Shown here piece by piece: positions 10,414 through 16,632 of a stretch of 64,000 bases of DNA (position 1 is its first letter; each line of letters opens with the position of its first letter). Made by a program: the position numbers and the translations under genes. This stretch comes from Natrarchaeobius oligotrophus (GTDB lineage Archaea > Halobacteriota > Halobacteria > Halobacteriales > Natrialbaceae): contig NZ_REFZ01000008.1 of assembly GCF_003841465.1 (NCBI RefSeq), positions 1 to 64,000 of the forward strand, in the 5' to 3' direction. The notes under the pieces were generated by a model. That model was not told where the DNA came from and ran no database searches. It saw nothing but the letters and a program-made list of their open reading frames with translations.

Positions 10414-10914
10414 ATGACATTCGCTGTGCCGTTCGACGGAACGGAACTGGCGGAAGCCGCCCTCGTCAGGGCCGTCGAGTACGGGAACGCGCTCGACGAG
10501 CCCGTCGCCGCGGTAACCGTGGTCCCTGAACGAAAACGATACGCGAGAGAGAAGGGCTGGATCGACGATGAAGACGAGTCGTTCGACGTCGAGGCGGTCA
10601 TCGAACGACTCCGCGACCGAGTACACGCGTTGGCGCCATCGGCGACCTTCGAGTACGAACGCATCCGCGAGTTTCCCCCCGAAGAGCGGATCGCCGACCT
10701 CGTCGAACGGCTGGCCCTGCGACACGACCCGAGCGTCGTGTTCCTCGGAAGCGACAACGTGGGCCGCGTCGTCACGCCGCTGACGAGCGTCGGCGTCCAC
10801 GTCGCCGCAGAGCGATCCTACGACGTGTTCATTGTTCGCCAGCTGTCGCCTCCCGGAGTCGACGCGGTGGAGGCCCACACGGAGTTCTATCGAGAGGATG
10901 AGGCGACGGGGTGA
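10414..10914 (+). CDS. Divergent Usp-like protein
   Basis: A 166-residue protein beginning MTFAVPFDGTELAEAALV, which matches the first beta-alpha unit of the Usp fold. The C-terminal ATP loop is missing: the equivalent region reads FLGSDNVGRVVTPLTSV, so it probably does not bind ATP in the classical way. The ATG at 10414 lies about 80 bases into a longer open frame and gives a normal Usp N-terminus. It is divergent from the tandem Usp gene at 9303-10211. Confidence 0.75.
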   Translation: MTFAVPFDGTELAEAALVRAVEYGNALDEPVAAVTVVPERKRYAREKGWIDDEDESFDVEAVIERLRDRVHALAPSATFEYERIREFPPEERIADLVERLALRHDPSVVFLGSDNVGRVVTPLTSVGVHVAAERSYDVFIVRQLSPPGVDAVEAHTEFYREDEATG

Positions 10915-13038: not shown

Positions 13039-13557
13039 CTACTCGTTTGGTTCGTCACCCGGGTCGTCGGCATCGTCGGCGTCGCCCTTGGTTGTCGTTG
13101 CGGGTTGCGGGCCACCGCCGGTCTGGGCTTCCTGCGCCTCGCCCCACCCGCCGGCGTCGACTACCTCGAAGAGCTTTCGCCAGTTCTCGTCGTCCTGACT
13201 CTCCGGGAGCTGGTCACGGAGCTGCTGGAAGTCTGACGGCGGAACCTGGGTTTCCACGAAATCGACGATGATTCGGGCGTGGTAGGCGGCTTCGGAGGCG
13301 TCGACGCCCTCGCCTTCAATCTCGCTGACGCGCTCGATGAACTCCCGCCAGTCGAATCGCTGCCCGTGTTCGCGGACCGCCCCGGTCATGTACCACTTGA
13401 TTTCGAGCGGCAGGTTAGCGGCGAAGTCCTCTGCGTTCCCCTCGGGGATTCGCTGGCCCAGGGTCATGAGGGTCGCCCGGATCGCCCGAACCGTCCGGCC
13501 GGTGTCGGGCAGTTCGAGTCGGTGCTGGATCTCGCCGGTGAACTCGTCGAAATTCAT
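13039..13557 (-). CDS. DUF2267 protein
   Basis: A 172-residue protein starting MNFDEFTGEIQHRLELP, typical of DUF2267, an all-helical family found in haloarchaea and actinobacteria, often near stress genes. Core features are RATLMTLGQRIPEGNAEDFAANLPLEIKWYM cut by a charged HGQRFDW segment and YHARIIVDFVETQVPP. A Pro/Asp-rich acidic tail follows (residues 145-172). It resembles the DUF2267 gene at 26568-26963 (both have QHRLEL, LPMEI/LPLEI, HGQRFD, YHA). The biochemical function is unknown; a general stress role is suggested by context. Confidence 0.88.
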   Translation of the reverse strand: MNFDEFTGEIQHRLELPDTGRTVRAIRATLMTLGQRIPEGNAEDFAANLPLEIKWYMTGAVREHGQRFDWREFIERVSEIEGEGVDASEAAYHARIIVDFVETQVPPSDFQQLRDQLPESQDDENWRKLFEVVDAGGWGEAQEAQTGGGPQPATTTKGDADDADDPGDEPNE

Positions 13558-13917
13558 CGTACTAGATGGCGCGACGACCAACACCGTCAATGCACGTGGC
13601 ATCTGCGGGCGAGCGAGATTGTCGCCGCGACGATACATACCGTCCGGAGAACCGATAGACTGCCCCCACGAGAGTATTATATGGCGATCGGTCACGTGCG
13701 ATCGTTCCAAGGGCGGATCCCAGGCGGCTGGTCAACTCGTTCGTCCGATCGGGGGCACGGATCGGACCGAAATACCGGACGGTTGCAAGATACCGGGAAT
13801 GACCGAAACGAGAATCACCGTCGGGCGCGCAGGTACGACCGTCTAACAGCACCTGCGACGATACCGTCCTGGCGGCACCGAACCACGAAACCCTGCCACG
13901 AAAACCCACCACAAATC

Positions 13918-15135
13918 ATGAATATTGCAGATATCGTTTCGGAAGAGTACGTCGAATTCGAACCGGATACGCGCGTTTCGAAGCTCGTCGGTACGTTCGA
14001 GGATCCCGATGTCGACGGCGTCGTCGTCCGGGGTGAGGAGTACGAGGGAGTCGTCACCCGCCGACAGCTCGCTAGCTCGCATCGCCAGCCCGACGAGAAG
14101 GTTGGTTCGTTAGTCTGGCACGTCCCGCGACTCGCGCCCGACGAGGACGTTCGGAACGTCGCACAGCTCATGATCGACGGCGACTCGCAGCTGTTGCCAG
14201 TCTTCGAAGAGCAGGAACTGCTCGGCGTCGTCACCGCCGACGCGATCCTACGGAAGGTCGAACCGTTCCTCGACGCGGCAACCGTCGCCGAGGCGTACTC
14301 GTCGGATCTCGTCACGCTCGATCCCGACTCGACGATTGGCGACGCGGTCCACAAGTTCCGGGAGGAACGGATCACGCACTTGCCGGTCGTCGAGGACGAT
14401 TCCGCTGTCGGCATCTTGAGTCTCTACGACGTGAGCGGCCTCACCGTCCGAGCCGAGGTACAGAGCCAAGGCGGGGATCCGGGCGGAACGGATCCGTTCG
14501 GGGGTGAAATCTCCGACAGCAGCGGCCGAACGCGAGCTGGCGGCTTCGGCGCCCGGGAGGGAGAACTCGCCCGAATGCTCGATCTGCCGGTTCGGGACGT
14601 CATGGTCTCGCCGGTGCGGACGATCGCTCCCGACGAGACCCTCGACGTCGCTGTCGGGGAGATGTTTGCCGTCGACGCATCGTCGCTGGTCGTCACCGAC
14701 GACGGCTCTCCCCGCGGCATCGTCACGAAGACCGACGTCCTCGACTCGCTCACGTGGGAGGCCGGCGGCAACCGGGGCGTCCAGATCTACGGCGTCGACC
14801 TGATCGATGACGCGACCTACGACCAGATCGTGGCGATGATCGAGAAGTTCGACGACCGGGACCACGGGATGAACGTGTTGGACGCGAAGGTCCACCTCCA
14901 CGAGCACGACGAGAAACGCCGCGGGACACCGCTGCTGCTCGCTCGCATCCGGCTGCACACGGATCGCGGACTATACATCGCCTCTGGGGAGGGTTACGGC
15001 GCGAGCCACGCGATGAACGAAGCGCGCGAGGTACTCGAACGGCAGATCCGCGACAAGAAGACTCACGCCCGTTCCATGAAACCACCGGGCGAGGAATTCT
15101 GGGAGAAACGCTTCGGCTGGCTGTTAGAGGAGTGA
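13918..15135 (+). CDS. Four-CBS-domain protein with HPF/RaiA-like C-terminal domain
   Basis: A 405-residue protein from the ATG at 13918; the frame stays open far upstream but that part is not protein-like. CBS repeats occupy about residues 1-60, 60-120, 120-180 and 220-280 (for example ELLGVVTADAILRKVE, LPVVEDDSAVGILSLYDV, SLVVTDDGSPRGIVTKTDV). The last ~115 residues (YDQIVAMIEKFDD ... ARIRLHTDRGLYIAS ... NEAREVLERQI) resemble ribosome-hibernation factor HPF/RaiA. CBS domains bind adenine nucleotides or SAM, so this looks like an energy-sensing ribosome-silencing protein. The HPF assignment is by pattern and needs a profile search. Confidence 0.85.
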   Translation: MNIADIVSEEYVEFEPDTRVSKLVGTFEDPDVDGVVVRGEEYEGVVTRRQLASSHRQPDEKVGSLVWHVPRLAPDEDVRNVAQLMIDGDSQLLPVFEEQELLGVVTADAILRKVEPFLDAATVAEAYSSDLVTLDPDSTIGDAVHKFREERITHLPVVEDDSAVGILSLYDVSGLTVRAEVQSQGGDPGGTDPFGGEISDSSGRTRAGGFGAREGELARMLDLPVRDVMVSPVRTIAPDETLDVAVGEMFAVDASSLVVTDDGSPRGIVTKTDVLDSLTWEAGGNRGVQIYGVDLIDDATYDQIVAMIEKFDDRDHGMNVLDAKVHLHEHDEKRRGTPLLLARIRLHTDRGLYIASGEGYGASHAMNEAREVLERQIRDKKTHARSMKPPGEEFWEKRFGWLLEE

Positions 15136-15890: not shown

Positions 15891-16103
15891 TCACTCGTCT
15901 GGGTCGTCTAGTTTCCGAACGAGGAGTTCTTCGACCGGTGCGTCGGACGCGTTGGTCTTCACGCTCTCGATACCCTTTTTCGCCGCGCGCTTGGAGCTGT
16001 ATCCCTGACTGCTGTCTGCGATGATGTTACCGCTGTCGTGGACGAGTCGGCAGCGCCACTGGCTTGCCCTGTCCTCGTAGAGTTCGAACGTCGCGGCGCT
16101 CAC
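15891..16103 (-). CDS. DUF1508 (YegP/HVO_2922-type) small protein
   Basis: A 70-residue protein from a GTG at 16103. The sequence SAATFELYEDRASQWRCRL, then SSQGYSSKRAAKKGIESVK, is the DUF1508 repeat (F.vy.D..g.wRwrl.a.NG.iia.s.eGY.sk..a..gI.svk). It is a cytoplasmic alpha/beta protein of unknown function that dimerises in solved homologues. A GTG start is needed because the upstream part of the frame is not protein-like. It sits among Usp genes, consistent with a stress role. Confidence 0.85.
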   Translation of the reverse strand: MSAATFELYEDRASQWRCRLVHDSGNIIADSSQGYSSKRAAKKGIESVKTNASDAPVEELLVRKLDDPDE

Positions 16104-16191
16104 ACTCCCAGGTCGGGAGCGACATCGATAAACTGTCGGTGAATCCGACGACCCCCATAACGTAATGCCGCCCGTTGGTGAAGCGTACACG

Positions 16192-16632
16192 ATGGCAGAG
16201 AAAGTTCTAGTTCCGACTGATGGCTCGCCGTTGTCGATTCGTGCGCTCCGACACGCACTGGAAAAGTTCCGCGATGCAGAGATCGTCGTCCTCCACGTCA
16301 TCGACGTCTTCGAGCCGTCGGATGGTGGCGGATTCGAGTCGCTCTACGAGCCGATGATCGGCTCGGAAGAGTGGGAGTCGATGGAACGGGAGGCGACGAG
16401 GGAACTGCTCGCCGAGGCAGAGGAGACCGCTGCGGAGTACGACCGGGAGATCGCAACCGACTCGGAGATCGGCGATCCACAGCGGATCATTCCGGATTAC
16501 GCCGAAGCGGAGTCGGTCGATCACGTCGTGATGGGCGTTCACGGTCGGGACGATCCGGGACGAACGCTGGTCGGACGGGTGGCAGAAACCGTCGTCTCTC
16601 GGTCGCCGGTTTCGGTTACCGTGATTCGCTGA
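16192..16632 (+). CDS. Universal stress protein (UspA domain)
   Basis: A 146-residue single-domain Usp starting MAEKVLVPTDGSPLSIRAL, the usual beta-1/loop. The C-terminal loop GVHGRDDPGRTLVGRVAETVV keeps the glycines but has Gly-Arg where ATP-binding members have Gly-Ser/Thr, so nucleotide binding may be weaker. The ATG at 16192 is chosen over one nine codons upstream because it gives the family N-terminus. It is divergent from the DUF1508 gene. Confidence 0.9.
   Translation: MAEKVLVPTDGSPLSIRALRHALEKFRDAEIVVLHVIDVFEPSDGGGFESLYEPMIGSEEWESMEREATRELLAEAEETAAEYDREIATDSEIGDPQRIIPDYAEAESVDHVVMGVHGRDDPGRTLVGRVAETVVSRSPVSVTVIR

Follow-up and report, generated by a model that had tools for sequence, protein, structure and literature searches.

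A predicted long-loop paralogue of the archaeal ribosome hibernation factor HibA in haloarchaea

Introduction

HibA is an archaeal hibernation factor in which four CBS domains are joined to an HPF/RaiA domain (Nat Commun 2026, PMC13324472; what we report of this study comes from parts of its main text). In Pyrococcus, HibA fills the mRNA channel and the tRNA sites of idle 70S ribosomes, in three conformations, and it inhibits translation and preserves the ribosome. A Thermococcus hibA deletion mutant recovers more slowly and has fewer 70S ribosomes. The same text reports HibA in 47% of archaeal genomes, and a Haloferax relative was noted in 2025, as stated in a passage of PMC12607858. Here we analysed a 405-residue protein encoded by a stretch of 64,000 nucleotides from the haloarchaeon Natrarchaeobius oligotrophus (NZ_REFZ01000008.1, positions 1 to 64,000), hereafter the window. 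A first-pass annotation of its sequence had proposed that this protein joins four CBS domains to an HPF/RaiA-like domain. Judging from the main text of PMC13324472, such a CBS-HPF fusion is an already named and experimentally studied family, HibA.

Domain composition and fold

Pfam CBS matches, predicted models and structure comparison together placed four CBS repeats and a C-terminal HPF-like domain in one chain, as had been proposed (Table 1). In the window protein, the CBS family (PF00571) matched four stretches with an E-value of 8.9e-33, and Ribosomal_S30AE matched residues 296-382 (E 0.013) with 16.6 bits, against a curated cut-off of 23.7. At this score, membership of the bacterial HPF family by sequence alone was ruled out. 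All 70 haloarchaeal relatives in our alignment matched CBS, and 40 of the 70 matched Ribosomal_S30AE (E <= 0.1). Since full-length orthologues with 63-82% identity span many genera, the gene architecture is far beyond chance. The best orthologues (82%) are all from Natrialbaceae, and identities reach 77% in some other families.

The AlphaFold2 model, computed with 70 haloarchaeal sequences, is composed of a four-CBS module, a low-confidence stretch at 177-216 and a strand-helix-strand-strand-strand-helix domain at 288-386 (strand 288-291, helix 301-314, strands 320-334, 337-348 and 351-360, helix 362-386), with a short helix at 392-403. Because CBS chains took up the Foldseek and VIA-align lists of the full model, the HPF domain was also modelled alone. 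The C-terminal 121 residues gave the identical order of elements, with a mean predicted local distance difference test score (pLDDT) of 80.5. At E <= 0.001, 18 of the 19 Foldseek matches of this model were HPF/YfiA/RaiA or chloroplast/hibernating-ribosome chains, partly judged by their titles, and the remaining one was a mitoribosome chain. The first 29 VIA-align rows (Z 12.1 to 8.6) were of the HPF/YfiA/RaiA or protein Y type, a few of them assigned by entry title, with 4hei_B at the top (Z 12.1, 89 residues, root-mean-square deviation (rmsd) 2.7). Double-stranded RNA-binding domains came next, at Z 8.2 and lower. The first-pass annotation had staked its claim on structure prediction of this region, a non-HPF fold counting against it; the HPF fold was returned. 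The two motifs on which it had relied, ARIRLHTDRG and NEAREVLERQI, are located at residues 342-351 and 367-377.

The HPF-domain profile also gave weak matches to UPF0339 structures (E 0.22 and 0.59), and the window contains a DUF1508/UPF0339 gene (Table 1). A hairpin-helix element common to both may explain this likeness, or it may be due to chance.

Membership of the HibA family

Searching PDB sequences with phmmer, we identified two full-length relatives of the window protein. One is 9l96_a (E 9.6e-199); the other, 9sr9_H, has a whole-chain E-value of 3.8e-34, its two matching stretches covering the CBS module and the HPF domain. Neither 9l96 nor 9sr9 was among the best 50 Foldseek and VIA-align rows for the full and C-terminal models (releases to 8 April 2026). 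Chain 9sr9_H is named 'Dehydrogenase' in its file. We took it as the P. abyssi HibA because its length of 392 fits, as does its agreement with residues and insertions that the covered parts of PMC13324472 name. The RG-containing archaeal insertion of the HPF domain, KFRGVHL in P. abyssi (324-330), aligns to KRRGTPL in the window protein (333-339), and R335 and G336 are invariant in 70 sequences. Residues aligned to the P. abyssi SAL insertion (283-285) are also present, beside a one-residue gap. The four-CBS module is MJ1225-like (Z 23.7, 250 residues, rmsd 3.0).

The window protein thus shares with HibA of P. abyssi and Thermococcus barophilus, as presented in the main text of PMC13324472, the four CBS domains and HPF/RaiA fold, a CBS3-CBS4 loop and a conserved CBS3-CBS4 nucleotide site. 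In contrast with the Pyrococcus protein, its loop region is about twice as long, it has an extra conserved tail motif, and its genome encodes three HibAs. We consider it highly probable that the gene encodes a HibA-family hibernation factor of a haloarchaeal long-loop branch, here called type A, whose HPF domain would occupy the 30S site, and whose CBS module would occupy the 50S sites, when growth stops.

Dri of Pyrobaculum and the Sri proteins of Methanosarcina (PDB 9znf, 9zng and 9zni) are ribosome-bound four-CBS modules similar to that of the window protein; our literature search found no paper on SriA/SriB. As described in the main text of PMC13324472, Dri has two four-CBS modules and no fused HPF domain, whereas the window protein has one module followed by the HPF domain. 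The bacterial HPF/RaiA/YfiA proteins (PF02482) share the fold but have no CBS module.

Paralogues and distribution

Three HibA-like genes were found in the window's genome: the window gene, a copy on contig C2 (46% identical) and a copy on C21 (39-45%). We surveyed 145 haloarchaeal genomes at least 90% complete, the window's own included. The short-loop C21 type, called type C, had a match at E <= 1e-60 in 143 of them (73 of 73 plus 70 of 72), and genomes G129 and G131 had none. G021 has a single match, at only 49% identity, and this protein is a long-loop form. Full-length type A genes (at least 63% identity to the window protein) occur in 26 genomes, and one more genome (G069) has a partial copy. 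Other long-loop forms with 40-54% identity, that of G021 included, occur in 27 genomes, at 30 loci. G129 encodes type A, and G131 has no HibA match at the thresholds used. Second C-like copies are present in G134 (54%) and G058 (43%). At locus L049, types C and A are adjacent on the same strand (308-1450 and 1495-2715). The type A genes of L042 (Natronosalvus hydrolyticus) and L069 (the G069 locus) are broken or partial, which suggests that the accessory type A copy is sometimes lost.

A tree of 90 proteins was computed with the loop and tail columns removed. It left out L004 (a duplicate of L003), the broken or partial L042 and L069, the short L155 and sequences at least 82% identical to a kept row. 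The haloarchaeal HibAs form one clade (bootstrap/Shimodaira-Hasegawa-like approximate likelihood ratio test 99/95), in which type C (99/99), all long-loop forms with that of G021 at their base (99/95) and type A (100/100) are grouped. All outgroup sequences came from within the phylum, and the program warned of long branches in that part of the tree. By these sequence comparisons, the window gene is best described as an extra long-loop paralogue beside a near-universal short-loop HibA.

HVO_2384 of Haloferax volcanii also combines tandem CBS domains with a hibernation-factor-like domain, according to the part of PMC12607858 covered. Its reported 42.5 kDa fits type C (41.7-42.8 kDa, n=3) rather than type A (44.4-44.6 kDa, n=2), so that by mass it is probably a type C protein.

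A long, conserved loop and a tail motif

Type A proteins have 37-44 residues between the R178 and L223 columns (n=59) and other long-loop forms 33-44 (n=30), in contrast with 19-20 in type C (n=34) and 17-20 in other archaeal HibAs of the phylum (n=17). As type C and the outgroup HibAs both have short loops, the short loop is probably the ancestral state. Ten loop positions (S183, G185, G186, G208, G209, G211, R213, E214, G215 and E216) do not vary among 43 type A proteins, a set kept under 85% identity, although the stretch is predicted to be disordered. Conservation in type A is 0.89 at the loop ends and in the tail, 0.83 in the HPF domain, 0.76-0.80 in the CBS domains and 0.71 in the loop middle (190-206). 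In Pyrococcus HibA, a loop at the same CBS3-CBS4 place touches the peptidyl-transferase centre, as reported in the main text of PMC13324472. The invariance of the loop ends is consistent with a fixed partner holding the loop.

The tail motif W[EDT][KR]RFG is present in all 59 type A proteins and in none of 64 other haloarchaeal forms. After K381, type A tails have 23-27 residues, about five more at the median than the 17-25 of the sampled type C and outgroup HibAs.

The loop motif GGxGxRxG, which all 30 other long-loop loci encode, was compared with GGQ, the motif of release factors. GGQ occurs in the loop region of one of the 59 type A proteins and of eight of the 30 other long-loop forms, a distribution that resembles chance occurrence in sequence rich in glycine.

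An orthologue in ribosome entries

Over 406 residues, chain 9l96_a is identical to the type A protein encoded by plasmid pHME505 of Haloferax mediterranei. It is 73% identical to the window protein (294 of 404 residues, no gaps) and is an A-branch orthologue, encoded by a plasmid gene of another haloarchaeal family. The same chain a is found in 9l96, 9l98, 9l9c and 9l9v, all of which also contain the large-subunit protein uL2; this uL2 sequence is common to eight entries. No 9l9x entry was found among 40 uS12 sequences at E <= 1e-45, nor for uS3, eS4, uS5 and uS7, joined, in the best 60 of 66 matches at E <= 1e-40. The best match for each of the latter four is from Methanosarcina, which a haloarchaeal chain would have outranked. 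The factor aIF6 is in 9l9c, 9l9j and 9l9v, so that 9l9c and 9l9v combine aIF6 with type A HibA in models that appear to be of the 50S subunit. A search for SBDS gave no 9l9x entry.

In the Pyrococcus work, aIF6 kept 50S subunits from joining 30S subunits, and no 50S bound to HibA was seen, according to the main text of PMC13324472. Since the four entries hold uL2 and none of the five small-subunit proteins tested, and two contain aIF6, the type A form may sit on free 50S subunits, unlike Pyrococcus HibA. This contrast, drawn from PDB chain lists, is the most interesting and at the same time the least secure point of our analysis.

Among the papers listed, our literature searches found none on chain a of 9l96, 9l98, 9l9c and 9l9v, on type A structures of the 9L96 series or on haloarchaeal HibA paralogues. 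The parts of the main text of PMC13324472 that we covered do not describe the long-loop branch; a text search of the main text gave one 'paralog' passage, on CBS-module families, and paralogues may be mentioned elsewhere in the paper. Apart from 9l96 and 9sr9, the PDB gave no close match to the type C protein of the window's genome. A second long-loop form of H. mediterranei, on plasmid pHME132, matched only 9l96 at E <= 1e-60, and of the two plasmid forms that of pHME505 alone was found in the PDB copy.

The nucleotide site

The nucleotide-site aspartates D171 (CBS3) and D273 (CBS4) are conserved in all 140 aligned proteins, including 17 outgroup rows, and those of CBS1 and CBS2 are not conserved in the haloarchaeal forms. 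This pattern matches the single adenylate site of Pyrococcus HibA, which binds adenosine monophosphate (AMP) between CBS3 and CBS4 (PMC13324472, main text). AMP probably binds at the same place in the window protein. The first-pass annotation had suggested that the fusion would join adenine-nucleotide sensing to ribosome silencing in one chain. The sensing part agrees with the invariant aspartates and with AMP binding in Pyrococcus. As for the coupling part, we found no report in the literature that shows it for any HibA, and AMP control of ribosome silencing is unproven.

Mechanism and alternative explanations

By analogy with Pyrococcus HibA, when growth stops the HPF domain would lie on the 30S subunit, in its mRNA/decoding channel, and the CBS module would fill the 50S tRNA space, where the glycine-rich CBS3-CBS4 loop of about 40 residues would reach the peptidyl-transferase centre. 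Translation would be blocked and the subunits shielded from degradation. Homology to Pyrococcus HibA supplies these putative binding sites, and the window protein would presumably act in stress. From the composition of the PDB entries, we also infer that the long loop may let type A proteins grip the free 50S subunit.

A bolder version of this hypothesis, which we hold only tentatively, is that type A represents a second HibA class anchored on the large subunit. Its GG..GG.GxREGE loop would fill the peptidyl-transferase centre, and perhaps enter the exit tunnel, tightly enough for it to guard free 50S subunits jointly with aIF6, the anti-association factor; the class would be spread in part by megaplasmids and provide cells with separate 50S and 70S factors.

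Several points weigh against these proposals. The full-length AlphaFold2 model is only moderate (mean pLDDT 75.7, predicted template modelling score 0.58), and the pLDDT of the loop is below 50, so that the loop is placed by sequence position only. The Pfam HPF match is under its curated cut-off. In the main text of PMC13324472, the authors argue that the Pyrococcus CBS module works by filling vacant sites and not through conserved specific contacts, its conserved residues being in the core, and the conserved type A loop does not resemble such vacant-site filling. AMP or adenosine triphosphate had no clear effect on ribosome binding by Pyrococcus HibA in the same text. Lastly, the factor of the 9l96 series may have been added to the sample, or may be modelled only in part, and a model of the 50S alone can derive from a 70S map.

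Type A might instead be an ordinary, redundant extra HibA, its long loop and tail being lineage marks with no separate role. The two further HibA forms in the window's genome, the patchy distribution of type A among the 145 genomes and its broken or partial copies are consistent with redundancy. Nevertheless, ten invariant positions in a stretch predicted to be disordered, a tail motif kept in 59 of 59 proteins, a genome with type A and no type C match (G129) and PDB compositions that suggest free 50S binding, unlike Pyrococcus HibA, argue for a role of its own, and we find mere redundancy rather unlikely. Much less credible is a departure from hibernation, in which the long-loop paralogue would mainly be an adenylate-dependent regulator of another partner, such as an enzyme or DNA recombination proteins, with the HPF fold as a relic. 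Passages of the two studies lend it some substance: the HibA-type HVO_2384 co-purified with an inactive variant of the acetyltransferase Pat2 (PMC12607858), and recombination and replication proteins were recovered in Pyrococcus HibA pull-downs (PMC13324472). The short-loop haloarchaeal gene also adjoins a Rad51/RecA-family gene in 21 of 34 loci. However, the HPF domain of type A is about as conserved as its CBS domains, the loop ends and tail even more so, and the type A orthologue is itself in ribosome entries; we regard such a regulator as very unlikely. The extra domain of bacterial long HPF makes ribosome dimers, and the tail helix of type A could in principle make 70S or 50S dimers in the same manner. 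The Pfam scan detected no long-HPF C-terminal domain (E <= 1), and the tail after the HPF domain has only about 20 residues, with the small excess over type C and outgroup tails given above, which makes a dimerization factor extremely improbable.

The 2026 description presents HibA as a factor that binds 70S ribosomes. In haloarchaea a natural experiment is available, as some cells combine a short-loop HibA with at least one long-loop form, and some long-loop forms are plasmid-borne, as in one cultured Haloferax species. It can thereby be tested whether the length of the loop determines if 70S ribosomes or free 50S subunits are guarded. The carriage of a hibernation factor by megaplasmids, and the role of AMP binding to the CBS module, can be tested in the same setting.

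Gene start and genetic environment

The reading frame of the window gene stays open upstream of the ATG at 13918. We aligned 59 type A sequences, the window's included (58 distinct, as one identical pair came from two collections), and a script chose the Met closest to the alignment start. As all 59 have an M-[N/D/E]-I start at this position, 13918 is the likely translation start.

Table 1. Features of the window HibA gene and its surroundings (window positions)
Feature	Position	Strand	Remarks
Long-loop (type A) HibA gene, 405 residues	13918..15135	+	ATG at 13918, stop 15133-15135
CBS1	13918..14082	+	about residues 1-55; Gln50 at the nucleotide-site Asp position
CBS2	14113..14268	+	about residues 66-117; Ala109 at the Asp site, which is variable
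CBS3	14275..14448	+	about residues 120-177; Asp171 invariant
Glycine-rich long loop, CBS3-CBS4	14452..14565	+	residues 179-216; same place as the published loop at the peptidyl-transferase centre
CBS4	14578..14760	+	about residues 221-281; Asp273 invariant
HPF/RaiA-fold domain	14773..15075	+	residues 286-386
C-terminal tail, predicted short helix (low confidence)	15076..15132	+	W-[EDT]-[KR]-R-F-G in 59/59 type A sequences
DUF2267 gene	13039-13710	-	divergent from hibA
Universal-stress gene	10414-10908	+	near hibA
Universal-stress gene	16165-16632	+	near hibA
DUF1508/UPF0339 gene	15891-16301	-	

With a DUF2267 gene and two universal-stress genes, the surroundings of hibA in the window are a stress-gene neighbourhood. 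No operon partner is kept across the 59 type A loci, some of which had only 1.5-2 kb of flank. Within 2 kb, DUF2267 is divergently upstream in 12 of the 59 and a universal-stress gene is present in at most 10. In a looser count of clustered open reading frames over all fetched flank, 32 of 60 loci had universal-stress genes and 19 had DUF2267; this set includes the window locus twice. The Rad51/RecA-family gene at type C loci, radB-like by Pfam, is convergent with hibA and within about 1.1 kb of it (e.g. L003:2777-3553, minus strand).

HibA relatives at E <= 1e-30 are encoded in 42 plasmid records, 12 of them at 60-80% identity, and PLSDB classes all 42 as non-mobilizable. Chromosomal type A genes exist as well, for example at L012, L019, L030 and L032. 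One H. mediterranei strain carries type A on pHME505 (L160) and the other long-loop form on pHME132 (L164). On plasmid pNMAG01 of Natrialba magadii (L162), a TnpB-family gene is directly upstream of the type A gene.
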